Source: Pegea sp. RAD2-039 (Eukaryota; Chordata; Thaliacea; Salpida; Salpidae). Taken from it: a stretch of DNA of 64,000 bases. The stretch lies in contig JAQGEQ010000232.1 of assembly GCA_034620365.1 (NCBI GenBank), forward strand, positions 372,001-436,000, written 5' to 3'. The translations under genes and the position numbers were made by a program. Of this stretch, positions 18,501 through 54,659 are shown in pieces (the stretch's first letter is position 1; each line of letters begins with the position of its first letter). Under the pieces are notes generated by a model. That model had not been told where the DNA came from. It ran no database searches and was given only the letters and a program-made list of their open reading frames with translations.

Positions 18501-21500
18501 ATGATTTTCAATTGAAAGTTATGATTTAACTAATTTCTCGTTGCTCCTGGTAACTAATCAAAACCCTAATTCAAATCATATTTATTTACAAATTCTTTTA
18601 GCTGTCATAAAACCAACATGATAACTGTAAACAACCATCAACTAATTGTTTGTAGTTTTTTGTTGAATGGGTCAAACCATCAAATCAAGTATCAGATTGG
18701 TTAGACACCAACGAGTATGGTCACGTGTTTATCGAAGGGACTCTGATATCAGCAAAACATCCAATCAGTCATCTCCCAGAGCCAGCATTGGTTAGTTGAT
18801 CCCTTCAAATGTGTCTTTTAATACAATAGTCTTTATAATTAGGAGTTTTCGAATCTTAAAGGCTGTTTTGATCTTGAAAATCATTCAATTATTCAATTTA
18901 TGAGTGATCTGACGATGTAAGTTAATTTATCTCTTCTCTGATTGGTTAATCAAAAATCTTCATCAACAGATCATCACAACCAACTGGCGAACTAAATATC
19001 ATCACAAAAGTAAGTAAACTTTCCCTCTCTCTACTTTTCATTTCTTCTTTAAACGCCACGTAATCGCGTAATCACCATGACAACTGATTTAGGAATCAGC
19101 TATTAACACATGGTTACGTGATGCCAGTCATTTTCAAAAACCGCTCAACATCTGGCTTTCTTTCAATCGAACTCAACGTATTCTACTCAACGGTAAAGCG
19201 CTGTTCACTGAAGCGTGACGCGTTGACGTCATCAGCGCTTTTGCAGACATCTTCAAAGTGGATGGCAACCGGATTCGGGTCTATTCTCCTGATAGCTCCC
19301 ATCGATCCATTACAGCTCTCATCATCTCCAGACTCAAAAACAAACATTTAAAAGTGCTTACCGACGAGGTGATGACGTCACACTGCTTGCGACGATGACG
19401 TCATCGCTTCTTTGCGCAGGTGCTCACTGAGACGAGGGTGAATCCTTCAATGATTCAAGTAGAGTTCATCAGAGGTGATGACGTCATCAACGAGATCTTG
19501 AGCGGTCGAGCTGTCAGCCAATTAGTAGCTCGTGTTCGACAGAGACCGACGCGCGACAAACGAACTATGGTGAGTATGACGTCACACACAACTACGTCAC
19601 TTAGTGGTGAGCGATGTTACGCTTGGGTAAGTTCGAATGCATGGCGTAGTGAAGCGAAACCGTTTACAAAAGGTGCGCCCTTATCTCGTCGACTTGCTGT
19701 CGCTAGGGTTGTCATGGCAACCGATCTATTCTAATCGATCGCGTTTAACTCCAAAACCCCTTTTTTACTCGAAATTTTTTTTCTTATCGATTTTTTGGTC
19801 TGAAATTTTGTGACGTCATCAAATCAGGTGGTTGAATCTGTATGAATTTCAGGAGAGCTTCAGTAAGAGTTTGAAGGAGAGATTACGAGATCAAGAAAGT
19901 ATTTTGTCTTCTCGAAAAAATCTGTCGTCGGTGGTAAAAAGCAAACGAGGAAAACGGAAAAAAGCGGAATTGAAAATTTCAGCTGGTTGGTACTGGTTGC
20001 TAATGGTTGTTGGTGGTTGCTAATGGTTGTTGGTGGTTGCTAGTGGTTGTTGCTGATTGCTAGTGGTTACTACTGGTTGCTAGTGGTTGTTGCTGGTTGT
20101 TAATGGTTGGTACTGGTTGCTAGTGGTTGTTGCTGGTTGCTAGTGGTTGTTGCTGGTTGCTAGTGGTTGTTGCTGGTTGCTAGTGGTTGGTACTGGTTGT
20201 TGCTGGTTGTTGCTGGTTGCTAGTGGTTACTACTGGTTGCTAGTGGTTGTTGCTAGTGGTTGTTGCTAGTGGTTGTTGCTAGTGGTTGTTGCTAGTGGTT
20301 GTTGCTGATTGCTAGTGGTTGTTGCTGGTTTCTAGTGGTTGTTGCTGGTTGCTAGTGGTTGTTACTGGTTGTTAATGGCTATTGCTGGTTACTAGTGGTT
20401 GTTGCTGGTTGCTAGTGGTTGTTGCTGGTTGCTAGTGGTTGTTGCTGGTTGCTAGTGGTTACTACTGGTTGCTAGTGGTTGTTGCTGGTTGCTAGTGGTT
20501 GGTACTGGTTGCTAATGGTTGTTGCTGGCTGCTAGTGGTTGGTACTGGTTGCTAATGGTTGGTACTGGTTGCTAGTGGTTGTTGCTGGTGGTTGCTAATG
20601 GTTGTTTCTGGTTGCTAACTACTGTTTCTGGTTGTAAATAGTTTTAATTTTGTTACAGATGATGTTGTACAAACTCCTTTACATATTTTACCTTCTAATA
20701 ACCTCCCAGATGTAATCCCTCCATGTACTACATCAATTCCACCTTTAAGTCTTCAAACAACACCAAAATCTCGAAATCCAAGATCAACTATCCCCTCTTC
20801 TTCTTCATCTACACCAGATCTTTATTGTAATGAGAATTTCAAAGCTTCATCGCCATCATTAACAACTCCAAATACTCCTGAAGACGAAGTTGCTCAAACA
20901 CTCCTAACTCTTTCATCACAACCTGTTCTTATTTCAAACCTTGTGACGTCATCTCATACATCACAAGTTGTGTCGATGACGTCATCACCGGCCGCCTGCA
21001 ACCGCTTTTCCACTTCTACTTCTATTGGTGAGTTCTCTGTTTGCAGCTTTCTACTGCCCTCGCGTGCTTGTGATGTCACCACTAGTAGCGCTGTTTCTCG
21101 CTCAATCGTTTATTTATTGTGAATTGAAACGCGCTTTTGTGCGCTTGTTTGTTTGTGACGTCATTTCGACGAGGTTTTGATGAACGTTGAAATCGATGAA
21201 AATAAGAAGTCAGATAGTTAGTATGACGTCATCGTCGTCGTCGGTGGCGGCGATGATTTGTTGTTGTGATGCAAGTCAACTAGTTGCAGATATATTTCGT
21301 TGGTCGCATATGCGTCATTGTAGCAGCGACTTCTACTGTAAACGACATTTTATGGTCTCACCAACAACCCCCCCCCCCCTCTCCTCCCTCTCTCGCTTTC
21401 ATCTCTTTTTTTTTGTTTTCTTTTCAAGTTGTTTTCTGAACGAAAGTTTGATTTCAGATTCATTGAAATTAACCAATCAAAGTTATTACCAAGTTTAAAA

Positions 21501-24500
21501 ACTAATCACTGGAACCAGTTTACAAACCAGCAAACCAATTAAGCGACCAGCAAACTAATTAAGCGACCAGCAAACTAATTAAACGACCAGCAAACCAGTA
21601 AACCAATTAAGCGACCAGCAAACCAGTTAAGCGACCAGCAAACTAATTAAGCAAACCAGTAAACCAATTAAGCGACCAGCAAACCAATTAAGCGACCAGC
21701 AAACTAATTAAGCGACCAGCAAACCAATTAAACGACCAGCAAACCAGTAAACCAATTAAGCGACCAGAAAACCAATTAAGCGACCAGCAAACTAATTAAG
21801 CGACCAGCAAACTAATTAAGCGACCAGTAAACCAATTAAGCGACCAGCAAACTAATTAAGCGACCAGCAAACCAGTTAAGCGACCAGCAAACTAATTAAA
21901 CGACCAGCAAACCAATTAAGCGACCAGCAAACTAATTAAGCGACCAGCAAACCAATTAAGCGACCAGCAAACCAGTAAACCAATTAAGCGACCAGCAAAC
22001 TAATTAAGCGACCAGCAAACCAATTAAGCGACCAGCAAACCAATTAAGCGACCAGCAAACCAATTAAGCGACCAGCAAACCAGTAAACCAATTAAGCGAC
22101 CAGCAAACTAATTAAGCGACCAGCAAACCAATTAAGCGACCAGCAAACTAATTAAACGACCAGCTGTTCAACTATTCAAACCATTAGCAACTTGCCTTCT
22201 AACGAGCTCTTTGAATTTGTTGAAATATTTCGACCTTATTGATTATTATTTTGAACTTTTTCTCTGCTTTTCTCTTTCTTCAAATCCCCAATTAAAAGCT
22301 TGCTTTTCACCCACGTGACTATCAAAGGTCATGCTTGATTGACTTTACAATAATAAACATCAACCAGCGTTCATGACGTCATCGAAGCCTTCTTCAGTCA
22401 CTAACTGATCACTTCTCACCACTCAACTGAAAACTTTTATTGATTCGTCAATTTTTCTCGTACCCACTCCAATAACTTCCCTGATTACATCCATCACTTC
22501 ATCCTGCAAATAATTACTTCATCTGCATCCTTTTTCACCTCTATTTGTCCACGTTTCGTCATTATCAAGTCATCTGATCGCGCGTATCTGCCTCTTTTTG
22601 TCTGACGTCATCACCGCTTTGTGACGTCACTTTTCACGCTGGCAATCACGTGATGAGTCTACTATTTAGCCAGCAAATCTTAAAATGTTGGTTTCCGAGA
22701 TTGCTTCGAATCTGGCGTCGATGACGTCATCATGTCTTATTGTGGTGGTTTCCATGGCAATTGAATGTCGCACAAGGTCATTAGGTTGGCATGGTAACCC
22801 GATGTGGCTTCCACCTAAGCCACTAATCGCGAAACTGAAGCCCGCTGTCGCTTCACAATCGTCTTATTTCACAACTGCACTGACCTTTGAACCTTCGCCC
22901 GTGCGCGCGCGCATGCACACACGTGATCGCTGAGACGAGATGCCCAAGGCTCCACGCGATTCAATTTATTTTTAGCGGTTAGCAACTAGAAATCGAAGTT
23001 GGAATCAAATCGCTGGTGCTACGTCATAAACGCGATTGAAGCTGCTGTTCAGTGTTATCTCAGTCTATTCATCATGTTACTGTGTCGCGCTTTCTTCTCA
23101 TATAGAGAGAAAAGCCAGAAAAAATGACGTCACGTGCGCGCGCGATTTGCATGCTGATTGGTGTAAGGGAAACGAAATAGCGTTTGTTCTTTTCTCTTTC
23201 TTCTCTTCTCTCTTTGTTCAGTCGGCGTGGTAGGTTTTTATGTTGCCTACAGCTTTTCATTCTCAGTTTAGCTAGCTGCTGCTAGCATTGTCCGCCATCT
23301 TTAACGCTTTTGTTTGATATCGGCAAAATATGGCGGCCATGGCGGGCTTTTAAGTGCCTAAAGTCGGGGAAGCTTATTTTTTAATTTGAGGTGATTTGAA
23401 AGTCATTTTCAGTCGATTTTTAAAGAGAGTTTTGCAAAGTATTGAATATTGAAAGGTTGCTTGAAGGTTTTTTGTTCATTTCAAACTGACTTTTATTAGT
23501 TTTTTGAGTTTAAACAGTAAATTTAAAAGTTAATGAAGTGACAGTTGTAATTTTCAACTTCAGCAAATACAGCTTTTCGAAAATCTCTTTTTTAAGAAAT
23601 AAAAAAATTAGTCAAGTTTGAAAATTGTTCACAAAATTTCATTTAAACAGCGCATTTGTCGGTTACATTAAAAATCCGCTACAAAATTGCTGATTATGTG
23701 TTTGAAGAGAGATTAGGACATGAAAATTTACAATTAATTAATTTTGTAATTAATTATCAGATTTAAAATCTTTCTCTAACTGATGAAGAAAAATAAGGAA
23801 AATTCAATTGGAGTTGATATCATTAAATTAGTGTCCCAAGAGTCTTTTAAGATCTAATTATGATTCAGCTTCTTCTTATTTCCCACAATTACGAATACTT
23901 TTGTTGTCTGCTTCACTTTCCTCATCTCAATTTCCAATTTCTTGATTTCACAAGCAACTAAGTAATCATTTAGAAGTCAATTTGTTTTAAACACTTTTTA
24001 AAGACAGAAGTGGCAAAATATTTAATGAAATATATTTATTTATTCACATCTATTAAAAAAATCCTTTTTTTTTACAAAAAACCTTTTCAAAAACAATCTC
24101 AACTTTTTCTTCTATGTTCCTTTTATTTGCAAAACTAGTTTTTCAAGCAAGAAAAAGGTTTTTTGAGAGAGTATATCACATACGTCATCATCTAACCCAT
24201 AAGATCTGATGATATTCAATCCATCGTTCATTCGTTGTTGGTTATCAACTTGTTTCAGAGTATTTTTTGCTGAAATATCTGAACAATTGCATGATTTGAA
24301 ATGTTTTTAAGAAGATTTTTTGCTTAATTTGTTTCTTACACAAGCAACATGCTTTGTCAGATTCAATTAACTTTTCAAATATCGTTTAAAATTCTTTTTT
24401 ATTTTCAATTTTCTTCAAATTAGTGTTGGGTTAGGAGAAAGTAGTTTCTGACTTTTGCAAATTTTAAAGAATTTTTTTTTGATTATTTTCAAATTGAATT

Positions 24501-27500
24501 TAGTGTTTTGTTATCATAAGAAAATTCAATATTTACATAAAACTTACTACATATCGTCAATTCTTTATTTATTTACATTTTTCAACCTGGAGTACGAATT
24601 TTTCAACTATTTATACAAATTATTTTGTTTTTCGAAATATTTTTAAAACTATTTTTTCATTTTTAGATAAAATAAATTTGAAAATAACAACAGATTATCA
24701 ACAAGCAGAAGATAACATCTCACAAGTCACTGTTCATAGCTCATTGATTTTACCGATGAATTCAGAAACAAAAAAATTGAAAGGGGTCACCATGCAGGTT
24801 TGTATCATGTCCACCAACCAACAGATCTTTAAATACAATTTTACAGCAACCAAACATACCTGGTCAACAACCAGTTCTACAAGGTACAGGTTTATATCAT
24901 TATCCAACGCATGTATATGCACCAACAACGTGTATACCATCGCACCATTTCATTCCACCACCTATACTAGCTAATCGGGGATCTTACTTCCCTCAAGATG
25001 TAAGATCAACTTCTTCATTCCAAACTCTTCTTCTAATCAAATGTCTTTCAGTTTGTCAGCGCTCAGCTACAGTACGCAAGTATGATTCAAAACCTTCAAC
25101 ATTTTGGTGTAACCACCGGCAACCAACAACCTATGTTTATACAAAACCAATGGATGAGCGCTATTAATCAAATCAGGCAAATGTCACCAGAAGAATTATC
25201 TCGAATACGACCAGTAATTACCATATTTGGTTAAAACGCGCGAAGTATTTGTCAATTTGTTGCAGCCTCCTCAACCAGATATCTATCCTTACATGAGACC
25301 AGCTTCAACTGATTTCTTATCAACTCTCAATAATCCTTATCGCTTCCAAGACCCGACCAACCCGAACATGGCCTCCCCCCGGATGACTGTCCCACTCTAC
25401 CACCACAATTCACCTCCTGCCCACCGCGACCTGTAAGTTGTTGGAATCCATTTCATCTATTAACTTTTTCCTCACAGAAAACCACGTAGTGACGTCACAG
25501 CTAAATCTAGTGACCTCATCACATCTTCATCGTCACCGTTGCCTGGCAACAAGTACAGCTCACCCGTGCCCATCAAACCAAAGATGACGTCATCAGGACA
25601 TAATCCAACAACTTGTGGACCACAAACATTGGCTAATTCTTTGTACCAACCACCAATTAGTCATCAACGGACCACACATCCGTTTTTGATGTCCCCGAAA
25701 CCGTCAAGCCCCAATCGCGCTAAACAGAAGCTTAATGACGTGTCCCAATTACGCTACACGCCGCCAGAATCTTGGAATGATCTCGTCTCCTCTACTCCCA
25801 TTCATAACTCGAAATCGATGGAAGTGACGCGACCTTGGATGACGTCACAAACAAATCCTACTGAACTGAAACTTCTCGATCCAGCCACGATATTCGCGTC
25901 ACGGACCGCTAATAGGACAGATTTGTATTCGCGAGAAGTGAAGAAACACTCGAGCCAACCTACTAGCAGGTACGGGTCACCAGAACCACGTTCACATCGG
26001 ACCACAGCGCCATATACTAACTATGGTACGATGGCAAGTAGTAAAATTTGGCAACCACCTGTTGGTCATATTGGGACAAAAGAATGGTCAGAATCTAATC
26101 ATAGATCTACTAGTCACCCCACAACCACCTCAGTGGTCAGCATGTCTTCTACATCATCTTCAGTAGCTGCTACCTGTCCCACAACCAATCAAATGCCCCC
26201 TACCTGTTCCACAGCTGCTCAAATGGCCCCTATCTGTCCCATTACTACTCAAATGGCTCCTACCTGTCCCACGACCACTCAAGTAGCCACTACCTGTCCC
26301 ACAACTACTCAAGTAGCCACTACCTGTCCCAAGACCACTCAAACAGCCCGTACCTGTCCCACAGATAGTCCGCTAGTATCTATATCTTCCATAACAACTT
26401 TAATTGACTCGACCTGTCCCACAACCACTGCTATGGTATCCCAACGTCAGTCAACCGTCACATCATCACTTAGCAACCGACCACAAGTTAGTAGTCAAGT
26501 AGCAACAGGTCATTCAAGAATTTACAAACTTCATCAAGATCAAAATCTTATCTCAACACCGCCACCTAGTGACGCATCTTCTCAAGATATTTATAAGATT
26601 GATTCACTTAAATACAATCCATCAGAAGCATCTCATATCTCTTCTTTTACTACATCTTCTCGATCTTCAATTCCTCAGCATCCTAAGAAGCGCTACACGC
26701 ACGATCTGAAGCCGCGTCATCAACTGCATCATGACGTCACGCAACCTTTACTGAAACATATAGTTAAAGGAGGCAAAAGTGAAGTTGGTCCACTAATGGC
26801 GGATGGTGGACGCGCGCGTATCTTAAGTTTAGCTGAATCGAAGCATTTACATCGATTTGCATCTAACGACCAACCAGCTGTTCAACGCGCGTCATCGAAT
26901 GGTTGCCAAGCAACCGAGTTACCCACAGATCTATCTGTGAAAGTCCTGAAACGTCCAGCAGATACGCGATCGAGTGATGACGTGAAGAAGGTTCGAATCG
27001 ATAAAGTCGAAAAAGAAGTCGTCAACGCTCTATGTCCCTCGCCACCATCTACTCTTCCTCTCAATCAAACTCCCGAAGAAGCTCTTCAAATAGCAGCATC
27101 CGGGATCATGAATATGAGAACAGCTTGTTGGAATGAACCTACCGGGGCTCCTTACGCCCCTAGTAAGGGGCAGGTCAAAGAAGCGTTGCTAGGCAGAAGC
27201 GCGCGACAACCTGTTGCCACCACAACTGACATCACCGAAGCTAAACGAAACAACGGGAATCACGTGATGACGTCATCACCAGCCGCTTCACCGCCGCCGC
27301 CGCGATCGATGATGACGTCACAAACGCCTCCTCGAAATTTCAAGATCAAATCTCAATGGATGGATCGATGTTTCACGACGTCATCAACTACGTCATCATC
27401 GACGTCATCATCTCATTCTACTATTTCACCCGATGATGACGTCAGCATCGCTGAACCCGAATCATCGCCGCCGAAAAAATCGAAAATGCGCGCGCGTAGA

Positions 27501-30500
27501 GATTTGAAAAAAGTTTTGCGCGATCATCGCCAAGCTAAAAGGAAGAGAAAAAACCGCGCGCGTCATAGCGATGACGAATCAACTGATTACAACGAAGAAT
27601 CGCGATCGGATGGTAACGTCATCAATAAATCGAAAAGTCAACAGTATCTTGAAGCTGGTTACCAAGAAATTGAAGGAGAAGAAAGTTGCTATAGCGACGA
27701 GACGGAATTTTCGGGCGACGAACGCGCTAATAGTGAAAGTTGTATGTTTCCTCCAGATCGAATGCGCCCGATGGGTGATAGTAAGTTGATGACGTCATCA
27801 TCATCACGTGACTGCTGATGCTAATTAGATGTTTTGTAGATGGATTACCTCAATCAATCTTAAAGTTTAAGAAAGATGTGATGGAATTACGACGAAATTA
27901 TCGATCTTTTATTCAAGATTTATCTTGTACAGATCTTAGTGTTTATGATGGTTCTAATTTGACAAAATGTCGTGAATGTGGTGATAGGAGTTCGTCATCA
28001 TTCTGTCGTTTCTATTGGTTCCGAAGGTTGGTTAATACTGGTTGCTAGTGGTTACTACTGGCTGTTGCTGGTTGCTAGTGGTTGTTGCTGGTTGCTAATA
28101 GTTGTTGCTGGTTGCTAGTGGTTGTTACTGGTTGCTAATGGTTGTTACTGGTTGCTAGTGGTTGTTACTGGTTGCTAGTGGTTGTTACTGGTTGCTAATG
28201 GTTGTTACTGGTTGCTAATGGTTGTTACTGGTTGCTAATGGTTGTTGCTTGTTGCTAATAGTTGTTGCTGGTTGTTACTGGTTGCTAGTGGTTGTTACTG
28301 TTTGCTAATGGTGACTACTGGTTACTAATGGTTGTTACTGGTTGCTAGTGGTTGTTACTGGTTGCTAATGGTTGTTACTGGTTGCTAGTGGTTGTTACTG
28401 GTTGCTAGTGGTTGTTACTGGTTGCTAATGGTTGTTACTGGTTGCTAATGGTTGTTACTGGTTGCTAGTGGTTGTTACTGTTTGCTAATAGTTGTTGCTG
28501 GTTGCTAGTGGTTGTTACTGGTTGCTAGTGGTTGTTACTGTTTGCTAATGGTGACTACTGGTTACTAATGGTTGTTACTGGTTGCTAGTGGTTGTTGCTG
28601 GTTGCTAGTGGTTGTTGCTGGTTGCTAGTGGTTGTTACTGGTTGCTAGTGGTTGTTACTGGTTGCTAGTGGTTGTTACTGGTTGCTAGTGGTTGTTACTG
28701 GTTGCTAGTGGTTGTTGCTGGTTGCTAGTGGTTGTTACTGGTTGCTAGTGGTTGTTGCTGGTTGCTAATGGTTGTTACTGGTTGCTAATGGTTGTTGCTG
28801 GTTGCTAATGGTTATTGCTGGTTGCTAGTGGTTGTTACTGGTTGCCAGTGGTTGTTAATGGTTGTTTTTTTTAGGATGAAGTTTAGTAACGATCAGAAAT
28901 TGAAAGATAGTGGTTTCTGGGAACCTGAGGATTGTACTGCCAAAGATTTAGCTCTTTGGTTGCCTAAAATGTACCCGGAACCAACTGGCACTAGATCTGA
29001 ACGTCGTGAACGAATTGCCAAACAAGCTCGCCCAAAAATGTCTTTTAAGGAAGCCTGTTTTATCCTTTGTAAAATCAGTCCAGTATTCACTCTAATTGTA
29101 GAAGAAGAACGAGATATCAAACAATTTTTTGATCCTAAAGGTACCTTTTAGTTGTACCTTAGATGGTCGATGATGACGTCATTTTGTTCTTTAGCTACCG
29201 TTTATTGGAAGCGACCTGTAGCTGGTGTACGAGAGATGTGTGATTCTTGTGATACAACCGTTTTCAATTTACACTTTACATGTCGCGTTTGTGGTTTTGC
29301 TATTTGTTGTGATTGTTACATTTATCAAGAATCATGTGTCGCCCCAACTTCCCCAACATCCTCCGAATCTTCAACTCTTCTCACTTTATCCAATTTTGGA
29401 TCCACACTCACATCTTCATCATGTGGATCAAACGGTTCGTGTTTTTGACAACTTGCAACTAATCGCGTGTTTTACTGACCACGTGTTTCAACTGACCACG
29501 TGTTTCAACTGACCACGTGTTTCAACTGATCACGTGTTTCAACTGACCACGTGTTTCGGTTAATCACGTGTTTCAACTGATCACGTGTTTCACTGATGAC
29601 GTGTTTCACTGACCACGTGTTTTACTGATCACGTGTTTCATTGATGACGTGTTTCGGTTAATCACGTGTTTCACTGATGACGTGTTTCAACTGGTCACAT
29701 GTTTCATTGATGACGTGTTTCGACTGATGACGTGTTTCATTGATGACGTATTTCATTGATGACGTGTTTCAACCTCAACGTGATCAACTGACTCTTATTG
29801 GCTGTTTTTAGATTCGGATTCGAACGCAATTTACTCAGAAAATGGTAAAAAATGGCTTCCTTGTATAAAAGGTGAAGCTCATAATCATCTACAGATGAGT
29901 CCCACTCAATTAATTCCCAGGTAATCCCACATCTTACTCCTCTTCTATCTAATCCTCATCTTGATCTTTTACAGCACATGTCTTGAAGATATTTACAATA
30001 TGATGCAAAAAAGAGTTTTAAAATATTTAAAGAAATCAAATCCAGTTGGAAATGATCCTCTTCCTCTCCTGAAAAACATCTGTAAGACTTCAACTGCTCT
30101 TCATCTTCTTATAACTCACTTACATCTTGTTTAGTTGGTGGAGATAAACCAACATCCGCAAAAGAACGGATCAAATCTTATGATTCTCTCCAAAACAACT
30201 CTTCATCACCTCTTGATTGGCTGGCAAGTATCGCACTTCGAGAAGAACGCGAACAAACCAGGGTCACCGCGCCCCTCCCTAATCGCGCGATCGCTGTTAC
30301 TACGCCTATTAGCGACAAAACATCAGAATCCGTCACCAACCATCAAAGGTGCCCCCGTTTTTAATCCCCTAAACCTTTTTCTGACCCCTTTTCTTACAGT
30401 AATGGTGAACCGGAAGTGAACGTTCCGCACCGTTGGTTTTGTAACAAGAAGTTTCTCAACCTTCGCGATGGCAACCTGAAAGAGAACTTGCCGATGTTTC

Positions 30501-31926
30501 AACAGCACTGGCTCGTTGCTACAGTGAGAAACATCGCGCGCTGGTTGCCTAGCAACCCACTAACCACTCTTGTGCAGCCGGTAATGACGTCAGGAGCTAT
30601 GCACGCGTTGAATCGTGACTTGTGGACACCAGCAAGTATGAATGAGGACTTCGGAGATGAAGATCCTCGAGAAACGCTCATCAATTGCTTCGATGGGACT
30701 TCTGTGAAGGGAAAACTTTTCCGGGACTTTTGGAATGGATTTGAAAGTATCAAAGGTAAGTTTGAAGTGTCTTGAGGTGCTGTTGAAATAATTGAGGCGT
30801 TTCATAGATCGATTGAAAGATGATCAAAAGAATCCGATGATCCTCAAGTTGAAAGATTGGCCAGATAACGAAGATATTCGAGATAAGATGCCGGAACGGT
30901 TTAATGTAAGTCATCTTCATCATTAAGATCATATAAAGATCTTTATCTTCTTAGGACATCACATCAGCTCTTCCCTTACAAGAATACTCGTCGAGAACCG
31001 GAAGTTACAACATCGCCACTTTTCTACCTTCGTATCTCACACCACCAGATCTGGGACCTAAAATGTACATCGCATACGGATGGGTAACTGAGAAGGAATG
31101 GAATAAGGGCACCACAAATCTTCATTTAGATATCTCTGATGCTTGTAATATGATGATGTATGTTGGAATACCTGAAGATGAACCAAAATTTGCCCAAGAT
31201 GCTCTTATCAAGGTTACTCGGGTTTTATAAATATATTCAGCCGGAAATTAAGAGTAAATTTCCCGCCAACAAATATTAACTTCCCCGTTCTCATCATAGA
31301 TAATCAAAGAAGGCGGCGTTGATGACGAGCAAATCAAACGCGCTCAAGTCGATAAACCCGGCGCGCTTTGGCATGTCTACCATCCTAAAGACTCCGATAA
31401 AATTCGAGAATTTATGAATAAGGTCAGTTGTTAGCTTTTAAGAAGCTACGCGCGCTGATGACGTCATCACTCGACAGTATAACAAAGAAGAAAATATTGA
31501 AAGTGTGGCTGGAAGCGATCCTATTCACGACCAGCAACATTATTTAGATCGAAAGATGAGGGAACGTTTACTAGAAGAATATGGAGTAAAAGGATACCCG
31601 ATAGTTCAATGTGAAGGAGATAGCGTGTTTATACCAGCTGGGGCACCACACCAGGTACCCGTGCCCCATTTCTAGCCCCATTTTCTAACCTCTCTTGTGT
31701 CCAGGTCTTTAATCTACACAGTTGTATCAAAGTAGCTGAAGATTTTGTATCACCTGAACATGTTGATGTCTGTTACAATCTAACCAAAGAATTCCGGAAA
31801 CTTCCGTCGTCGCATAGCAACCACGAAGACAAATTACAATTGAAGAATATTCTTTATCATACAATCAAAGAGATTCTCACAACTTTCAATTTTCACGAAT
31901 ACCTCCTCAAAAAACCATCTCAATAA
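15571..31926 (+). CDS. KDM3: KDM3/JMJD1-family histone H3K9 demethylase
   Basis: Twenty-seven exons splice in frame to 2164 residues: 15571-15723, 18656-18790, 18843-18916, 18970-19009, 19093-19192, 19247-19368, 19420-19569, 19853-19985, 20659-21027, 24667-24797, 24847-24999, 25052-25213, 25266-25432, 25478-27780, 27840-28026, 28875-29140, 29195-29434, 29812-29920, 29975-30081, 30135-30348, 30400-30523, 30578-30755, 30808-30905, 30955-31212, 31300-31422, 31478-31654, 31705-31926. The enzyme is a nuclear Fe(II)/2-oxoglutarate oxygenase that removes methyl groups from H3K9. The N-terminus (SVGKKLLL) resembles KDM3B. Exons 10-14 are Ser/Thr/Pro-rich and unconserved. A KCREC motif lies near residue 1440, and the KDM3 cysteine zinc finger ([10 protein letters not shown]... 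to CCDCY) at about 1555-1590. The C-terminal JmjC domain keeps the iron triad His1962, Asp1964 (LHLD) and His2090 (PAGAPHQ), spaced almost as in human KDM3A. PTDLS at 1112-1116 fits a CtBP-binding motif. The N-terminal joins are the least certain. JMJD1C-type naming is possible. Confidence 0.93.
15724..18655 (+). other. KDM3 intron 1, AT-rich
   Basis: The largest KDM3 intron along with intron 9, about 2.9 kb against mostly 50-100 nt elsewhere. It is A/T-rich with stop-rich frames. A longer open stretch at 17195-17548 lacks a normal ATG, has skewed hydrophobic composition and is judged spurious. No nested gene or RNA is seen. Confidence 0.6.
19990..20625 (+). repeat. 20-bp minisatellite filling KDM3 intron 8
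   Basis: A tandem array with unit GGTTGTTGCTGGTTGCTAGT, itself two related 10-mers, with point variants such as GGTACT and TAATGG. It starts within a few bases of the exon 8 donor at 19986 and runs to about 30 bases before the exon 9 acceptor at 20657-20658. The related array in intron 15 (28.0-28.9 kb) has the same unit. There are no unique spacers, so it is not a CRISPR array. Confidence 0.95.
21521..22163 (+). repeat. 20-bp minisatellite in KDM3 intron 9
   Basis: A tandem array with unit AAGCGACCAGCAAACTAATT, mixing ACTAATT and ACCAATT versions with occasional extra CAGTAAACC segments. It lies in the 3.6-kb intron 9 and contains no open frame of interest. It differs in sequence from the intron 8 and 15 arrays but shares the 20-bp period and a CCAGCAA word complementary to their TTGCTGG. 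Confidence 0.95.
23225..23365. promoter_or_regulatory. Possible internal promoter in KDM3 intron 9 (YY1-like sites)
   Basis: A GC-rich patch within intron 9 with CCGCCATCTTT near 23291 and, on the other strand, ATGGCGGCCATGGCGG near 23330. These are YY1-type (AAGATGGCGGC) words typical of TATA-less animal promoters. CpG-rich sequence (GTGCGCGCGCG) lies 100 bases upstream. It would suit an alternative promoter for a KDM3 form lacking exons 1-9. No transcript evidence is available. Confidence 0.35.
26163..26445 (+). repeat. 30-bp coding minisatellite in KDM3 exon 14
   Basis: Within the 2.3-kb exon 14 a 30-base unit repeats about nine times, encoding ten-residue variants of CPTTTQMAPT. It is in frame and lies in the unconserved Ser/Thr/Pro-rich middle of the protein. 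The regular cysteine every ten residues is unusual for a nuclear linker. Confidence 0.85.
28030..28865 (+). repeat. 20-bp minisatellite filling KDM3 intron 15
   Basis: A tandem array with unit GGTTGTTACTGGTTGCTAGT and GCTAATGG variants, the same family as intron 8. It begins at the exon 15 donor (28027, GTTGGT) and runs to about 10 bases before the TTTTTTTTAG acceptor of exon 16. The array makes up essentially the whole 848-base intron. It is longer and more homogeneous than the intron 8 copy. Confidence 0.95.
29463..29775 (+). repeat. 17-bp E-box minisatellite in KDM3 intron 17
   Basis: A tandem array of about 18 units close to GACCACGTGTTTCAACT. Ten units contain the perfect palindrome CACGTG, and several others carry TGACGTG instead. 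Unit length varies between 12 and 18 as the CAACT part is gained or lost. It lies between the exons encoding the zinc finger and the conserved segment after it. Confidence 0.93.
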
Positions 31927-32305
31927 CACTTGCTGCTACTTCTCCTTAATGACGTAATACAACTGATGACGTAGTACACCTTGATACGATGGTGCTTGTA
32001 TCATCGTCCATAGCAACCTGACAACCGTAACCTGGTATTTGGTCGTCATGGAAACCTCTGTGCCAATTGCTACCTTTTTTCGCACAACCATGTGCTGTAC
32101 ATGACTCGCGCGGCTATGACGTGTGGCTTTGTGTGATGACGTCATCAGCGCCGACGTTCAACCTTGTTTCTTTCTATTTTGTTTCCTTATTAAAATGGCT
32201 GTGGTGATGACGTCAGTAAAGTGTGACTACTAACGTCATCGTTGTCATGTGAACAACACCGCTATGGATTCTTTCAACTTCGTTTTACAACAGAAATTCC
32301 AATCA

Positions 32306-34720: not shown

Positions 34721-34915
34721 CTACAGATAAGCAATCATTAAGCTCTTAAAACTTTATAAAAATGACTGTAGCTAAAGATAAAAAAATCTCAAACGCAAAA
34801 CTTCAACAAAATTAATGTAAAAAAATCACAACACAAAAGACTCAGTTAAAAACAAAAATAAAGAAATATAATTTCATTTGCCAACAAATCATATTTTTAA
34901 ACTTAATTTTTAAAG
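34721..34915 (+). repeat. 190-bp dispersed repeat, copy 1
   Basis: This segment is over 90 percent identical by eye to 53441-53633 in the same orientation, beginning with ATAACTACAGATAAG. Both copies start and stop sharply. The sequence is A-rich and non-coding. It may be a short non-autonomous element. Confidence 0.8.
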
Positions 34916-37900: not shown

Positions 37901-37980
37901 AATAATTTCCTTCACCTAGTCTCTAGCAGATGAAAGGAAGTTAACTTTCTACTTGGTCATGGAATTTGATCATATTCAAG
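34916..37980. other. AT-rich intergenic DNA, no gene seen
   Basis: About 3 kb of A/T-rich sequence with no coding exon, RNA gene or repeat that I can support. Confidence 0.6.
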
Positions 37981-37989
37981 ATCTGCCCA

Positions 37990-38345
37990 GTGACCTAGGA
38001 CAGTGACATGGGACAGTGACAATGACCTGGGACAGTGACATGGTACAGTGACCTGGGAAAGTGACCTGGGACAGTGGTATAGGACAGTGACCTGGGAAAG
38101 TGACAAGGGACAGTGACCTGGTACAGTGACATGGTACAGTGACATAGGACAGTGGCCTGGGACAGTGACCTGGGACAGTGGCATAGGACAGTGACCTGGT
38201 ACAGTGACAAGGGACAGTGACATGGTACAGTGACATGGGATAGTGGCCTGGGACAGTGACCTGGGACAGTGGCATAGGACAATGACCTGGGACAGTGACT
38301 GAGGACAGTGACCTGGTACAGTGACATGGGACAGTGACATCAAGG
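37990..38345 (+). repeat. Minisatellite with 13-bp-type unit
   Basis: A tandem array of variants of ACAGTGACCTGGG, ACAGTGACATGGG, ACAGTGGCATAGG and ACAGTGACAAGGG. Three overlapping minus-strand open frames (110-130 codons, all SLSQVTVPGH-like) arise from the stop-free repeat and are not genes. The array abuts the possible SINE at 38350. Confidence 0.95.
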
Positions 38346-38349
38346 ACAA

Positions 38350-38510
38350 CGGGTTGTAGGTTTTCTGTCTGGGTCTACTCCCTGTTAGTGGAGCCTACAG
38401 TCTGGGAAGATATATTTCGCGCTCAATAGGCGGTGTTATATGGCGCGATAAAGCGTATCTTTGACGATGAATTGGGATTCAAACCATGCGTGCAAGCTAC
38501 AATGGATTAA
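38350..38510 (-). mobile_element. Possible tRNA-derived SINE, uncertain
   Basis: A GC-richer block next to the minisatellite. On the minus strand it contains GGTTTGAATCCC near 38470, one mismatch from a tRNA B box (GGTTCGAATCC). It also contains complementary words (GTAGGCTCCAC and GTGGAGCCTAC) able to form a hairpin. No A box or cloverleaf could be found, so a tRNA gene is unlikely and a decayed SINE is only a suggestion. Confidence 0.25.
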
Positions 38511-38617
38511 CAACCAATCAATTCGTTTCTCGTTCATCTCGTTGTCTTTATTACCTATTTGCTAAGAAAATTATGAGAATAACACAGTAAAAAAAACAAA
38601 GTAATCATAAAAACTAT

Positions 38618-38623
38618 TTTATT
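38618..38623 (-). terminator. Poly(A) signal of the TRAIP-like gene
   Basis: AATAAA on the minus strand about 50 bases beyond the stop codon of the TRAIP-like ORF. Confidence 0.5.
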
Positions 38624-38675
38624 TCGAAGACTTTTATAAACTGTTAGTCAAGAAAAAATCCACATCATTTTCATT

Positions 38676-39902
38676 TTACTTTTTTTTTTTTTTTAACTTA
38701 GCAAGGCGGTTGTTAAGAGTAGCTAAGCTTGGCGAGTACTTTAAACTCTGTTCAAATTCATGACGAGATAATAAAGAAAAAGTCTTTTGACCTCCAAAGC
38801 CATCAGATCGGTTCGTACAATTATTAGTGATGAATTCGCCAAACTTTTTTCTTTTATTTTGAGGTGGTTCAACTATTGTATGTTGAAGACTGAAAACTTT
38901 TGGTTTCACAAACTCTTTTTCAACTTTCGCCACTTTTGGTTGAGTCTTTTTCAGTTCTGGGCTGGCACCTAAATCCTCATTTTCTTTTAAACATTTTGGA
39001 GCGGGACTTTCATATAAAAGACGAGACACCACCGAAGATTTTGTATCACTAGGTGACGCTATAGCGTTCTCTAATGAAGTAATTTTCTTCTTTAAACTCT
39101 CAACAGTTCTCAATAACTCCTCCTCACTGAGTTCTAAGACTCTAGATGAATTCTGGAGGTTTTCTAGCTGCTCAGTTATCTGAGCATTCTTTTGTTGTAA
39201 GAATAAATGCTTTTTTCGTAACTTTCCAAACTCTAATTCCTTTTTAGATTTTAACTCCTTAATACTTTCATATTCTTGTTTCAAAGCGATACAAAAAACT
39301 GCTAATTTATGACTAGACTCATCTTTACTTCGATAACTTTTTAGTAATTGATCAACTTCTACTTTTTGCCCATTTAAAACATTCTGTACATTTTTGTACA
39401 AAGTATTTTCATTCTGTAATTTTTTGTTTAGAATCTTTACACTTCTATAATCTGAAATTTCACGTTTAAAAGTGCTTAGTTCAATTTGAATTTGTTTTAC
39501 TTCAGTTTTTTTACTTTTTATTTCTGATTTAAATTTTTCTACTTCTACTTCCAAATTCTCAATTGTATTATGAGATTCTTCAAGAGATTTTAAAGTTTTT
39601 GATAATTCAATTTCAAGGTTATTTATTTTATCAGTTTTTTCTTGAAGTTCATGCTGTATTTTTGCAGTGTTCATTTCATTATTACATCCTTGTCGAGGAA
39701 TATCAGGAAAAATTTTATGAACTATTTGTTTATCTTTGATTTTAGAACGACAATGTGGACAAGTAGGTTTATTTCCACATGTTTCTATCCAACGGTTTAA
39801 GCAATTAAAATGAAATAAATGCCCACAATATAAAACACTAATTTCATCATTAATACAATCCAAGTTATCAGTACAAATAGAACAAAACCCTGCTATTAGC
39901 AT
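38676..39902 (-). CDS. TRAIP: TRAIP-type RING E3 ubiquitin ligase, intronless
   Basis: A single 408-residue ORF. TRAIP is a replisome-associated ubiquitin ligase that triggers CMG helicase unloading and interstrand-crosslink repair. A RING-H2 domain fills residues 7-51: Cys7, Cys10, Cys26, His28, His31, Cys34, Cys48, Cys51. A long coiled coil runs from about 75 to 285 (ALKQEYESIKELK resembles SLKKEYENLKEAR of human TRAIP). The tail has the family signatures VSRLLYESPAPK and GFGGQKTF. The protein ends in AKLKKKKK, encoded by a genomic A run, and I see no C-terminal PIP box (human TRAIP is 469 residues and ends with one). All other conserved genes here have 9-27 exons while this has none. With the A run at the 3' end, this suggests a processed retrocopy that stayed open. 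An AG splice acceptor (TATTTCAG) lies two bases before the ATG. Confidence 0.9.
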   Translation of the reverse strand: MLIAGFCSICTDNLDCINDEISVLYCGHLFHFNCLNRWIETCGNKPTCPHCRSKIKDKQIVHKIFPDIPRQGCNNEMNTAKIQHELQEKTDKINNLEIELSKTLKSLEESHNTIENLEVEVEKFKSEIKSKKTEVKQIQIELSTFKREISDYRSVKILNKKLQNENTLYKNVQNVLNGQKVEVDQLLKSYRSKDESSHKLAVFCIALKQEYESIKELKSKKELEFGKLRKKHLFLQQKNAQITEQLENLQNSSRVLELSEEELLRTVESLKKKITSLENAIASPSDTKSSVVSRLLYESPAPKCLKENEDLGASPELKKTQPKVAKVEKEFVKPKVFSLQHTIVEPPQNKRKKFGEFITNNCTNRSDGFGGQKTFSLLSRHEFEQSLKYSPSLATLNNRLAKLKKKKK

Positions 39903-39909
39903 GACTGAA

Positions 39910-42900
39910 ATATATCTGAAATATTTACAGAATTTTATATTAAAAGATTGTCACAAAGTTATGGAATATATAATATCAAACATTTTATAATATAATTATT
40001 AGATTATTATAAAAGTTTTTTATCAATTTTTAAGTCTTAGTATAAATTCTGTATCAGTTATAAAAGTCAGTTTCTCTAAAAAAGTAGTAAATAATTTAAG
40101 TAAAAATTAAGTTTACTCATATGAAGAAAAAATATTTCATTTTTGTTTAAGAAATATAGATTAATAGCAAAAAATAAAACAAAAAAAATACCATCTAATT
40201 TTAAATGTTTAAAATTAAATATCACTATTATATATAAAAGTTATTTAAAATTTTCATTTTAATATTATAAGCTTTTTATGAATATATTTAAAAATAATCT
40301 TTTTAAAATATTAATTTTCAATTTCAACAAAATAAATTTATAAATAGAAATTTTTGTTCAAAACATTTACTTTCAAAAGAATAAAACAAAAAAATATAAA
40401 AAATACACTAAATAATAATAAATTAAATAATATAAACTAAGTTTTACACAAAAAAATGTTTTATTTATATATTCATTATTTATACATAAAACCATAAAGC
40501 TCTTATAGTAGACACAGCACATAATGGCTGCAGAGAAATAAAAATGTCAAAATACAATCATTCAAAAATAATTAATGTAAAAATTAGTTAAATAGCAAAT
40601 AGTAGAGTTAAAAATAAAATCAAGAAAATTATAAAATAATAAATCGATTGTTAACAAAATTACTCAAATCAAAATTTTTTTGCTCTACTTAAAAAAAAGG
40701 AGGAAATAGTTAAAATTATAGAAAAAAGTGAATAAAAGTGAATAAAATAAAGTAAAATGTTTGTACTTTACTCTAATTGAGTTGGAAAAACGATAAGTTT
40801 GCTGAAATTTTAAAATTAGTAACGAAAAAAAAAATAAAATGGCTTTTATCAAATTTGTAACTTTATCTAGTAGCCATTACAGTGGTATTAGCATTTTAAC
40901 CAATTCTGCTTAATTATTCTCAAATGATATCAATTTTTATCAAATCTTCTTTTTTCTAATCTTATGTTTTTTAATGTATATTTTTCGTGTATACAGCTTT
41001 CAAAAATTACACCTTACTTACATTTAAATTATTTTACTTTCAGTAAACAACACTTTAACAAAACAGATAAATTATCTTCATATAAATATTTTGTTGGATT
41101 AACATAAGTCTTTAAAAAGTATGTGAAAATATAAATTGATCAAAATTTATTTATTTTACAACTTTTTTATTTTGAACTATATCATTTTACCAAACAATAC
41201 AGTAATTACACATACATTATTTATTTTTTATGAATGTTTGCATAGACTTAAACTCCTTCAATAATCTTCACGGTAATTATAAAATATAATATAAAGTAAA
41301 AATGTAGATAATTACAACTAAAAGCCAAAAGATAAAGTGTTGTTAAAGTACGACGAAATTGTTATTTCCATTTTATTTTATCATTACTTGTAAAATGATG
41401 AAAATTATTGATAGATAAAAATCAAATTTTTGCTTGTAAAATAAAGCGGTGCAAGCTAAGCTAGACACAAGCTAAGCAACCAGCAATTCAGAAGGAAAGA
41501 CATTGGTATATTTAAGATAAAATTATTTCTCTTAAATTAGAATTATTATTTTATATTAATCATTAAATTTTTGAGAGAACAATAGTAGGCAGTTATTAAA
41601 TTTTTAAGGAAATATGATGAGAGTTTCAGCTAGTTTATTTTAGAACAAATATTTACGAAAGTTTAGTTTTGCCGATTTAGGATTTTTAGCTTATCACTCC
41701 ATAGTTATAAAACCAGAACGAAAAACTTACAGCATAAATAAATCTCCTCTGGTTAGTTGAGGATGTTGTCTAGAATATAATATTAGTATTTATTTGTTTA
41801 TAAACCACGATATATCTAGCTTGTGACTACAAGAACATTTTGCATAAATCTATGAGACTCCAATGTTATTAATAAATAAAAAGATCAGAAAATGAAAGAA
41901 AAATACTTTTAAAACATACCGCCAGAAATTAAAGGCAATTATAAGATATAAAACAAATATTATAAATAATATCTTATCGTTTATATTAAATACTTTATTC
42001 ATTCAACGTTCTTATATTTATACCTGCAACTTATCACTAGGAAATATCATTTGATAGAATATTACAGCAAAAGTAATTATTTTATTATTTAATTACCTTA
42101 TTCTTGTAAAAAGTCTGAGCTGTATATGCATCTGAATTTGGAATATTAAATATATATTTGCTTCTTTTTCATGTCTTAAAATCAACTATGTTCAAAAATA
42201 TTCAAAAGTATATGCAGTTAATAGTTATTTTTTGTGTTTGCTACAATTCTTTAAAATTTTATTCTTATTAGTCTTCTTGTAGTATTATCAGTTTAAACAA
42301 TTTAATCTTAATTGTCTAAACATTTAAATGGCTATATTTAGTTTCAAAACATTTTGATTGCTTTAAAAGTTACAATTATAGTAACTTAAATTACTATGTA
42401 CCAATCTGTAAAATTTAAATATCAATTATGCTTGACAGAATGAGTAATGGAGCATAACTAGCACCTGCTCATGAAAGAAATAGGCTTCTATAATATTTGT
42501 AGCAATTGTTTTAGAAAATATTTTAAAATTCAGAAGTAATTATCAGCTTTAGTACTCTTAAATGAATTAACAGTTCTAATTGAATTGATTAAATTAGATT
42601 TTAATGAACGCTGTTATCTGAGAATAGTTTACAAGAAATGGTCAAACTGTATATAGAGTTTATGTATCTTTAATGATTCTTAAAAGATTTTTTTGTAAGA
42701 ATCATCTTTTTAAAATAGTAAAAACTATTTAAATCAAATTTTATTTTAAAAGAAGTTGATGTTTCCTAAGAAAAGTTTTTAAAAAGCTTTTATAGATTTT
42801 AATGGTTGTGTGTAAAACTCAAAAAGAAAATATTTTTCTTTGTAGTTTTTATTGAGTTTACTGCTTATTTTACTCAAATAAAAATATATTTCACAGCTTT

Positions 42901-45900
42901 GCACTTTTAAAATGTTTTTTGTTATCTATCTCAGCCTTTAATACAAAAACGTTTTCGCCAACAAAATTTCATAAAATCCACAACAAACAATTTTTCACCC
43001 AACAAGTATTTACTTTTCAATAAACTACTTTAATTTTAAGTACCACAAAATGTTTTACTATTGTTAGATTTGTTACGCTTCAGTGCTTTGGTGTCGATGA
43101 CGTCATACGGTGGGCTCATAAACATAGATTGCTAGTGACGCTAAGCAGAAAGCTGATTATCAAATTTAAACATATTTTGGTATTTGTTGTGACTGAAAAT
43201 CGTGATTAGATTACAATAAACAAATAATTTAATATTTGAATAACTTCTCTCCTATTTAATTATTGAGCTTCTAGTTTTTTAAATATAAAACTTATTTATA
43301 TAATGTTTTCTATAACTTTAAATATTATTGGCGTTTTATATAAAATATTATGATTATTTTTTTTGTTAGTTGTTGAATAATTTAGAAAAGTTTTTTTAAA
43401 TTTAATTTTGTAATTATTTTTTTTTGGTTAAATTTATTTCTAACAGATGTAATATTTCTTTTGAAATTTAGAAAAAGTAATTTTAACTTTTTTTGTGTGT
43501 TGCAATTATTACTTAAACTTTTTAAATAAAATTTTATAAAACTAAATTTTTTGTTTCAAACTACAAAACCATATTTACAAAATAGAAAATTTTAAAAGAG
43601 CCAATATTAGTAATATATTAAAAAAATCAATGTTAAAATGAAGAAGAATTATAAAAAATGAATAATTTGCATAACAACATTCTTTCAAAATAGCTGAGAT
43701 AAAACAATTCAAGTTCTGCTTTAAATACTATTTTTAGAAATATTTGATTTTTAAAACATTTTTTTGGAAGTGTGAATACTTTGAAAGATTATTTTTTAAG
43801 TGTTTAATTTTGAAATTATTCCAAAAATATCTTTGAATCTATCTTATTTTATCATTTAAAGCTGTAGCAATATTTTTTAAGTATCTAATGGCAGCTATTA
43901 TCCTTATGCGTGATAACTTTGTAATTGTCACTTGATTTTTAGGTGAGCTATCATATGATTCACAAACTATAATCAAAGGATTAGCAAACAGGCTGTTCTA
44001 AAACTTTTTAGTTTGATTATGATTAATAATTTAATTTTGTCAGATTAAATTGTAATAATCTGAAAGTATAAGTTTTTATATTAATTAATTTTAATTAGTG
44101 TAAAATGTTTATTTTTTGATTTTTGTATAGGATATCTTTTTAAAGTCAAAAGTAAATATAAAAAGAATGTATTATCAACACCTTTGACAAACAAAATCCT
44201 ATCAACTTTTTTCTCTTTATTTCTCTGTAGTCATATTTAAAAAAGTTGATTATAATTGAAAAGATAGCTGAAAGTTTGTTTATTGTAAATATAAATAGGA
44301 AAAGAAGTTGTTTTGCTATTTAAAGATGATTCATGTTATTATACTTACAATTATTTAGGATATAAATGATAAAACTTATTTAACTTTTATAATTTTTTAT
44401 TAATATTTTATGTATCTTGTTGCTTAAATTAACTATTATTAAAAGATAATTAAATTTTTTATATAAATGATTTTGGAAACATTTATTTTATGTTTAAAAA
44501 AACCTTAAATATTTAAAAATATGAATAATTTTGATAAATGTGATTTCAATTTTCTATCTTTAGCTATTCTATTTTGAAGAATCAACCTAACTAACTTAAA
44601 AGTTTATTTTATAAAATAGATAGATTGTTATAATAGCTTACAAAAGTATGACTAGAGTTGTATTTAAGTTATAAAACTAATATAGCAAGGAAAAAACAAA
44701 TTATGACAGTTTGTTTACTTTTAATTGTTTTTTAAATTAAAAAAAAATAATTGTTGTATGAAATTATAATCATTGAAATAATTGAACCAATTTTTTGCTC
44801 GGTGTTTACTTCTATAAGTATTTTTGAGGAAGTTCTTTTCTTAATATATCAGTCATTTTGATAGAAACAAGAGATTCTGTAGATATTAAAAAGGTACATA
44901 CAAGCATTTTGTCATTAACTTTTTGTTGGTGGTGTACCCATGTGTTCTCCAGATCTTGTTATTTCGTGCCCTAATATTTAAGGAAAAGGCAGTGATAGTG
45001 TCCTCATAGGTCAGTCCTATTCTTGTTTGTTGATATTTTCTGATTCTTAACCAGAAAGAGGTTTACTTCAGGAATTATTGCAAGTACTTCTTTCTTAGGT
45101 ATTTGAAAATATAAGGATTCAGCTAAGAATCCATATTTTGAATCTAAGGTAATCGTCATCTTTAGCAACTTACAGAAATGTTTGCATTTAGGAGAATTTT
45201 TTTAAGTTTTATGAGAAGAATTATTAAAACTGAAGATGTATGAATTACCAACTAACTTTTTATATGTTTTAAATCAGTTTTTATCAAAACTCTATTAGAT
45301 ATTTTGAGATGAAACAACATATTTGTGAAACATTTCATTTTTAGAAAGATATCATAACAAAGAAAGCTCTTGTTGTTTTATGAAAAAACATTTTTGTTTA
45401 TTTTGCATCTTTAAGAAATTTTGTGAGAACCAACTTCAAGCTAGAAACAGTTTTATTGAATTTATACAGAGTTCCAGTTTTAATATTTCCAAATATTTTT
45501 CTTAATTATTTAAATCTATACTTAAAAAATCATGTAGCCTTTAGTGAATTTAATTATAAAAAAATTTTTGCATGATAAGTACACATGACAAGGTTTATTA
45601 TAAAAGTGGTATAAATGTATAACAAAATCTGACAAATAACATTTTATGCTGAAAGTTATTCTTTAAACTTTTAACTTCACAAGTAAACAGTAAATTAAGC
45701 AAATGGATTTTAGTTTTAAAAAAGTCAAATAAAATTGAACTTTTCTTAATTTAGAATTTCATTCTAAAAAATATTTAAAGAATTTTTTAAGTTAAAATAT
45801 CTTTTTTTAACTTTTAATCACTTAAATATCAATAATATTGATTTAAATTATTTCCATAGAAAAATTTAAATTGAATTTTAGAAATTATCTTTTCCGATTC

Positions 45901-46010
45901 AATATCAGAATTGAAAAATTAGTTTGTTGTTGATTTTGAACTTTTTTAAAGTTAATTTATTCAATTATTTACAGAGTTTTTATAAGAAATGTTACCATTC
46001 CAATATTATT
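39910..46010. other. AT-rich intergenic DNA with two composition islands
   Basis: Six kilobases without a supportable gene. Two patches break the A/T background. The first is 43070-43150, with CpGs and a TGACGTCA octamer, which could be the SLK promoter about 2.9 kb upstream of its start codon. The second is about 44930-45080, mixed composition with no open frame, possibly a 5'UTR exon or old repeat. Neither can be proved from sequence alone. Confidence 0.5.
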
Positions 46011-46014
46011 AGCT

Positions 46015-46024
46015 AATTCTTTAG
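46015..46024 (+). promoter_or_regulatory. Unpaired 3' splice site before the SLK start
   Basis: TAATTCTTTAG ends at 46024, three bases before the ATG at 46028. It is either the acceptor of a 5'UTR intron or a trans-splice site, like those before RRM2 and the TRAIP-like gene. Confidence 0.5.
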
Positions 46025-46027
46025 AAA

Positions 46028-53073
<7,046 letters not shown>

Positions 53074-53387
53074 CGTCACACCAAACCTTCGCCTTACTTC
53101 TGTACATTTGCTGCTTTATATGACGTCATCACAAGTGGACATTTTGGCTTTTACTTTTTGTGGCCTTTTTTTTTGAGACTTAGATAAAATTTGATAATTT
53201 TTTCTTTCTTTTTTTCTCTTTTTTTTCTGGTCACCTTCTTAAATGATCACAAGAAGATGAAATGATGAGATTTTATAATTTTTAAATCATGTTATGCTCC
53301 AATTTTACGATTATTCGCTGAATTATGTTTTCTTTTAATTCGTCTCAAAGTTTTTCGTCACAAAAAATAAGGTTTTTTTGATCACAA

Positions 53388-53393
53388 AATAAA
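53388..53393 (+). terminator. Poly(A) signal of SLK
   Basis: AATAAA about 315 bases after the SLK stop codon. Confidence 0.5.
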
Positions 53394-54655: not shown

Positions 54656-54659
54656 TTTC

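Follow-up and report, generated by a model that had tools for sequence, protein, structure and literature searches.

The 64-kb stretch of DNA analysed here (the window, from a genome of 105.7 Mb in 387 contigs) carries the genes RRM2, KDM3 and SLK together with a great number of copies of one eight-base palindrome, TGACGTCA, which is identical to the cAMP response element (CRE) recognised by CREB/ATF proteins. The window contains 81 copies of the octamer, whereas 100 dinucleotide-preserving shuffles gave 0.44 on average and at most 3. The identity of RRM2 was confirmed by a PDB match, and KDM3 spans ~19.1–31.9 kb, from its tudor domain to its catalytic JmjC end. The features that bear on the octamer are the following.

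4230–4278 (49 bp), 4587–4639 and 5197–5247, + strand: RRM2 introns of the gene model, each with one TGACGTCA
19.1–19.7 kb: KDM3 tudor domain (Pfam PF22987, E 1.4e-11; matches the KDM3B tudor domain)
19224–23132: 5′ part of KDM3 with 15 TGACGTCA, comprising tudor exons, short introns and stretches not divided into exon and intron
19369–19419, + strand: 51-bp GT..AG intron in the KDM3 tudor region, with two TGACGTCA
25464–27818, + strand: long open frame of KDM3 encoding low-complexity protein (exon 25478–27780 in the model), with 7 exonic TGACGTCA read as MTS, DV and the like
30578–31925, + strand: catalytic JmjC end of KDM3 (best PDB match KDM3B, E 2e-66), with an exonic site at 30585 and an intronic one at 31459
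32137–32215: two TGACGTCA directly downstream of the KDM3 coding end
47237–52323, + strand: SLK gene, its kinase domain nearest to SLK and STK10 PDB chains (E 1e-70), with a PKK domain (PF12474)
48055–48112, + strand: 58-bp intron in the SLK kinase domain, with two TGACGTCA
48585–48870, + strand: SLK exon encoding a low-complexity linker, with 5 TGACGTCA (MTSS, VTSS, DDVI, DDVT)
51443–52128, + strand: 30-bp coding tandem array of SLK, 22.9 copies, 10-residue unit
52382–52444, + strand: predicted, unsure last small exon of SLK
52405–53128: three TGACGTCA at or just past the SLK 3′ end

A single locus, the SLK tandem array, accounts for 22 of the 81 copies. When the eight tandem arrays of the window were masked, 59 copies were left against 0.46 expected (129-fold), and the GC-rich parts of the genes, 19.6 kb after masking and modelled with local trinucleotides, held 53 where 0.62 were expected. 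For the whole genome, a trinucleotide model was built with octamers masked on a 240-kb systematic sample (200 kb of contig C1 taken at even steps, plus four other contigs at 10 kb apiece), and a second version on all 318 kb sampled. The genome holds 27,792 copies of TGACGTCA; the 240-kb model predicts 449, which makes a ~62-fold excess, and the larger version 475. The 240-kb model describes the reversed control ACTGCAGT well (969 found, 1,027 predicted). An earlier reading made from the letters of the window (the sequence-only reading) had claimed a great excess of the octamer and suggested counting against a Markov model. That count, made here for TGACGTCA, bears the claim out, with an observed/expected ratio nowhere near 1. 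The range then given for the excess, 19000–53120, does hold it, yet the limits were drawn too tightly, as seven copies lie at 4240–11388 and one at 53121. Chance and base composition are ruled out as the cause by the shuffles and by the local and genome-wide composition models, and the excess indicates that a strong force acts on the word as DNA.

Alternatively, the word might follow from selection on protein, for TS or DDV motifs, or from plain base composition. MTSS, VTSS and DDVI peptides do recur in low-complexity regions, as selection on protein would have it. The coding sequence of the three genes contains 16 copies in 7,758 nt (2.1 per kb), including one in a short repeat (48707), but when synonymous codons were shuffled with the proteins and the codon usage kept (1,000 runs), a mean of 0.78 sites and a maximum of 5 were left, so that the excess vanished. 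Seven other loci, all chosen for holding the word, have 33 coding sites against 1.9 after synonymous shuffling. Site density is, moreover, higher in introns than in exons, and base composition meets the difficulty that the models predict just 449–475 copies genome-wide. Either explanation is scarcely credible. The third frame of TGACGTCA reads TGA, and just two reading frames are therefore open to it; these are used 10 and 6 times, and 16 of the 34 TS dipeptides are written ACG TCA, 10 octamer sites standing in that frame. The proposal that the same word is tolerated in different frames, and owes its presence to a DNA-level cause rather than to selection on protein, is thus supported.

Exons and introns were assigned from hand-set junctions and with a home-made gene finder, trained on few genes with the octamer masked, which recovers RRM2, KDM3 and SLK in large part. 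The introns of these genes are mostly 45–62 bp long, and 12 of the 37 accepted ones hold TGACGTCA, with 13 sites over a total of 2,410 bp, or 5.4 per kb. Four junctions in this set were picked among GT..AG choices, two of them with more than one choice, and the longest intron is 294 bp; introns near 49120–49280 and 50800–50900 (three sites) and two introns with minisatellites are left out of it. Site 19479, exonic in the gene model and intronic by hand reading, is in neither count. Seven sites that would pass for coding (4240, 4602, 5207, 48070, 48085, 48277 and 48514) are actually intronic. Conserved parts contain or adjoin two of the coding sites: 47292 presumably falls in the N-lobe of SLK's kinase domain, and 49548 borders on the PKK match. 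The octamer had been described as occurring in exons and introns alike: it is present in both, but at unequal density, with 5.4 sites per kb of intron and 2.1 per kb of coding sequence. It had also been placed on both sides of KDM3 and SLK, and mostly lies inside them, as the tudor match puts the start of KDM3 at ~19.1 kb; seven further copies follow KDM3 or SLK downstream, at distances of up to 2.6 kb. Its rarity in the A/T-rich gaps (1–3800, 5601–18900, 34501–47100 and 53301–64000; ~40.4 kb) holds, with five copies.

The enrichment is sharply confined to the exact word. With one mismatch allowed, 64,917 places were found in the genome, which leaves 37,125 near-misses over 24 words, about twofold above the 18,731 predicted by the model, while the exact octamer is 62-fold above prediction. 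The one-mismatch neighbours of the control ACTGCAGT number 27,699, against 27,334 predicted by the 240-kb model. In the CRE-rich loci, a set chosen because its members hold the word, the half site TGACGT was counted 128 times on one strand and 133 times on the other, and on either strand 107 of these belong to an octamer. In the samples, neither the AP-1 word TGASTCA (36 seen, 40.6 expected) nor TGACNGTCA (none seen, 2.9 expected) shows enrichment, and that of TTACGTCA is only twofold, so that the pattern is specific to the CRE in its full 8 bp. That CpG palindromes are in excess generally is rejected for A/T-flanked ones: AAACGTTT, AATCGATT and TTTCGAAA reach 0.7–0.8 of expectation in the masked window, compared with 129 for TGACGTCA. 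Equal enrichment of unrelated CpG palindromes, named in the sequence-only reading as a result that would speak against it, is accordingly not what these words show; yet TCACGTGA, whose dinucleotides are identical to those of TGACGTCA, is 11-fold enriched in the masked window (5 seen) and ~tenfold genome-wide (4,614 against 467 expected), and GCGCGCGC, ACGCGCGT and TCGCGCGA, made of G+C only or nearly so, are in excess on counts of 2–4. The ETS word is raised in the samples (6 seen, 1.3 expected); BoxA (2 against 1.4) and the NRF-1 half word (1 against 0.5) show no notable enrichment there. Another over-used palindrome is the X-box-like GTTGCYNRGCAAC, which we take to be an RFX-like X-box; it has 439 genome places against 3 for its reverse, the reverse being CpG-richer, and examples lie at 47904–47916 of the window and at C1:618473.

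The flank of the octamer is a symmetrical palindrome, TGATGACGTCATCA. Among the 59 unmasked sites of the window, A precedes 41 and T follows 40, the next position is G in 31 and C in 32, and the third is T in 34 and A in 35; the TCA extension is present on both arms of 10 sites, on one arm of 21 and on neither of 28. Relative to transcription, the 29 CRE-bearing introns have it upstream 16 times and downstream 15 times. The suggestion that an extension toward ATCA makes the word directional is thereby refuted, and a fixed orientation is found only in the 30-bp array of SLK. In vitro, CRE-type bZIP dimers bind best to TGATGACGTCATCA.

A sharp palindrome with a palindromic extension is also what characterises HIP1, the highly iterated palindrome of cyanobacteria (PMC4390886, in the part of the text available). 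In a eukaryotic counterpart, the word would be made and kept by an enzyme-directed bias of mutation or repair, with no regulation needed, for instance through octamer methylation steering mismatch repair. Such a process is the strongest rival to the reading of TGACGTCA as CRE sites. It accords with the lead of the exact palindrome over its variants (27,792 copies, where a variant has 1,547 on average), with the octamer's occurrence in exons as well as introns, and with the tenfold excess that persists in CRE-poor DNA, where the C1 sample has 10 octamers in 200 kb against 1.02 expected. The genome has 11 matches to PF00145, seven of them in single frames of 832–873 amino acids that are predicted methyltransferases, and HIP words have been tied to methyltransferases, methyl-directed repair having been proposed by Elhai (PMC4390886, same part). 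The density of HIP1 is given there as about one per kb. On contig C1, by comparison, the first 100 copies of TGACGTCA take up 1.56 Mb, which makes one per 15.6 kb where the genome as a whole averages one per 3.8 kb, so that an even spread at about one per kb is not found. HIP1 is spread evenly over its genome, in coding and non-coding DNA, whereas the octamer is strongly clustered by gene, and a repair bias alone does not predict the company of TCACGTGA. We regard this explanation as unlikely on balance. The single frames with cytosine methyltransferase domains lie at C57:819728-826344, C249:1740707, C32:10146-38173 and C52:9209, two of them close together on opposite strands, and a further copy is in pieces at C49; they are perhaps retrocopies or carried by mobile elements.

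The gene-by-gene clustering is strong. Against the 12 of 37 introns in RRM2, KDM3 and SLK, only one of 119 predicted short introns (≤75 bp) in the 200-kb C1 sample holds the octamer; introns outside the three genes are predictions, and the figure of 119 will include false ones. Among other predicted short introns, the octamer is found in 0 of 34 from the four other contig samples, in 3 of 21 from loci L037 (fetched for its cluster) and L038, and in 15 of 44 from loci L001–L008 (fetched for a doubled word, see below). Clusters on C1 are found, for instance, at 1210361–1215014 and 3204329–3208039. Forty-one copies of TCACGTGA lie in the first 1.56 Mb of C1, and 10 of them are within 200 bp of a CRE (0.84 expected), some overlapping it, 13 within 1 kb (3.4 expected) and 21 within 2 kb (6.1 expected), the expectation being that of uniform random places without correction for GC or gene content.

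The CRE-rich loci differ in composition as well. With octamers masked, these loci, selected for their sites, have a GC content of 41.3% and a CpG observed/expected ratio of 1.02, against 31.9% and 0.70 for C1 genes, and their short introns have 38.6% GC against 29.0% in C1. Methylation decay is not supported as the source of the CpG difference, the TpG ratio being 1.12 in both. Raised GC and CpG would be expected if the octamers were meiotic hotspots in the manner of ade6-M26, where sites open the chromatin and attract breaks, and GC-biased conversion lifts the local GC. In fission yeast the M26 motif ATGACGT, bound by the ATF/CREB factor Atf1/Pcr1, is established (PMC9775316, in the part available). 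GC bias, in contrast, favours no single octamer, which weighs on this explanation. A motif that attracts breaks on its own chromosome is, in addition, expected to be converted away rather than multiplied. CRE-dependent hotspots are thus an improbable cause.

Copying of the word can be considered too, either as cargo of introners or of a tiny mobile element or by local duplication. The SLK array and three sites at 24-bp steps in locus L029 have the look of local duplications. In the array, TGACGTCA is present in 21 of 22 whole aligned units and TGATGTCA in the remaining one, and the partial last unit holds one more copy; one change falls among 176 octamer positions against 29 among 484 positions outside, which, the copies being non-independent, is weak evidence for a DNA-level cause. 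The array lengthens the tail of SLK by ~230 residues of 10-residue repeats built on the octamer. A 2.5-kb query run against the genome for a second SLK copy, with which alleles could be compared, matched only the window and a stretch of 122 bp at 70%. A doubled word, TGACGTCATCATGACGTCA, occurs at 26 exact genome places, and five of the eight fetched lie in a predicted ~50-bp intron, as a mobile word might; the eight 11-bp spacings in L001–L008 reflect that choice of loci and are uninformative. Nevertheless, an 8-bp word offers no machinery for movement, and outside the array the surroundings of the sites are unlike each other. Introners are rejected: the 29 CRE-bearing short introns, compared by eye, share nothing beyond the octamer and its short flank, and the mobile short word entertained in the sequence-only reading finds no support in them. 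Mobility or duplication as the general source is very improbable.

Taken together, the symmetrical flank, the specificity for the full 8 bp, the gene-wise clustering and the company of regulator-like words favour sites within genes that are bound by a bZIP protein. We propose that TGACGTCA serves inside genes as a binding site for a bZIP protein of the CRE type (CREB/ATF) and is kept by selection at the DNA level, a reading to which we give close to an even chance. CREB or a relative would bind TGACGTCA, often within TGATGACGTCATCA. The sites are scattered densely along certain genes of this genome, wherever the sequence tolerates them, in ~50-bp introns, coding-adjacent stretches and low-complexity exons. 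Binding inside a gene might then help its expression by acting as a distributed enhancer that holds the gene body open, and selection on this benefit would keep the octamer exact. The genome encodes a CREB orthologue: on contig C14 a bZIP stretch of 43 aa matches CREB1 (E 2.2e-18), and 3.8 kb upstream of it the same strand carries a partial pKID match. CRE and E-box belong, in mouse, to a set of six co-occurring CpG words that predict housekeeping promoters (PMC2267717, in the part available).

The near-misses bear on whether the octamers are maintained. By a simple estimate of our own, neutral decay would leave about one near-miss per exact octamer. The CRE-rich loci have 38 near-misses against 13.3 expected, an excess of 25 beside 107 exact octamers; this falls below the neutral-decay estimate and was counted for maintenance by selection. 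The systematic sample has 62 against 42.5 expected, an excess of 19.5 beside 24 exact octamers. The excess per exact octamer is thus 0.23 in the CRE-rich loci, 0.66 genome-wide and 0.8 in the systematic sample, and octamers look kept or remade in the CRE-rich loci only.

Several points weigh against CRE sites bound within genes. The near-misses of the systematic sample are close to neutral decay, which suggests maintenance only for the CRE-rich loci, themselves selected for their sites. The tenfold excess even in the CRE-poor contig means that part of the cause may be general. The octamers spread through the whole bodies of KDM3 and SLK to the last exons, instead of gathering at the starts as these are placed by inference. 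Ordinary regulatory DNA is rich in weaker variants, which are scarce here, and the 12 bZIP matches in the genome are, to our knowledge, an ordinary number. The company of TCACGTGA, lastly, was compared with uniform places only, and not with places of like GC or gene content.

Other features of the window and genome were noted. KDM3 contains two 20-bp minisatellites of TGGTTGTTRCTGGTTGCTAG type, at 19984–20617 (31 copies) and 28039–28864 (41.8 copies), and a third 20-bp array lies at 21526–22164; the KDM3 intron 29456–29771 holds a minisatellite of 16–17 bp with the consensus ACTGATCACGTGTTTC, many units of which contain CACGTG. A RING finger protein of 424 aa is encoded without the octamer in a single frame at 38676–39950 (− strand), beside a 13-bp minisatellite at 37988–38338. 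Past 53128 the window has no TGACGTCA, and the region 54141–63919 contains a match to the SOUL haem-binding domain (62791–62964) and look-alike open frames at 54141 and 63761. Scans of the window for tRNA and Rfam families returned nothing. Elsewhere in the genome, protein kinase genes form runs of neighbours in single open frames at C265:335286-381761 and C75:1987-115766. Telomere repeats TTAGGG are found, which makes an insect or a nematode an unlikely source, and a search for mitochondrial COX1 gave no match.

A literature search of limited coverage brought up no description of such a word from an animal, and the genome is inferred to be that of an animal from KDM3, SLK and a CREB predicted to bear pKID. 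More speculatively, and with chances well short of even, TGACGTCA could be the first highly iterated palindrome in an animal, in which a dedicated binding, modification or repair activity would write and preserve the word in permissive parts of chosen genes, bending codon choice and seeding MTSS, VTSS and DDVI peptides into low-complexity protein. If the sites are bound, the site of a well-known regulator is placed inside genes on a scale that we have not found described, and the role of intragenic binding is directly testable, since a single ~50-bp intron may contain one perfect site or two. Should they be unbound, one octamer is being written into coding DNA by a process of repair or conversion, a eukaryotic counterpart of the HIP1 problem.

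Among known systems, HIP1 (GCGATCGC) resembles TGACGTCA as a short exact palindrome in huge excess with a palindromic extension (PMC4390886, partial text). The present case differs in its genome, an animal's to judge by its genes, its gene-wise clusters, the identity of the word with a known regulator site and the small excess of near-misses. The ade6-M26 system likewise has a CRE-like word, bound there by a protein of the ATF/CREB family, and GC is locally raised here, but the present genome has tens of thousands of full palindromes. The promoters of mammals that are built on CpG words (CRE, E-box, ETS, NRF-1, SP1 and BoxA) share the co-occurrence of CRE and E-box and the raised ETS word; the location here is in gene bodies instead, and BoxA and the NRF-1 half word are not notably enriched. 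CREs of mammals are far commoner within 150 bp upstream of the start, and sea squirt, fly and worm have no such start-site bias, with no comparable excess mentioned in the available parts of that paper (PMC1796609). With the CRE of CREB/ATF the likeness extends to the identical octamer, the symmetrical flank and an encoded CREB orthologue with pKID and bZIP stretches; what sets the present genome apart is that gene bodies, tiny introns and coding exons are filled with it at ~62 times expectation.

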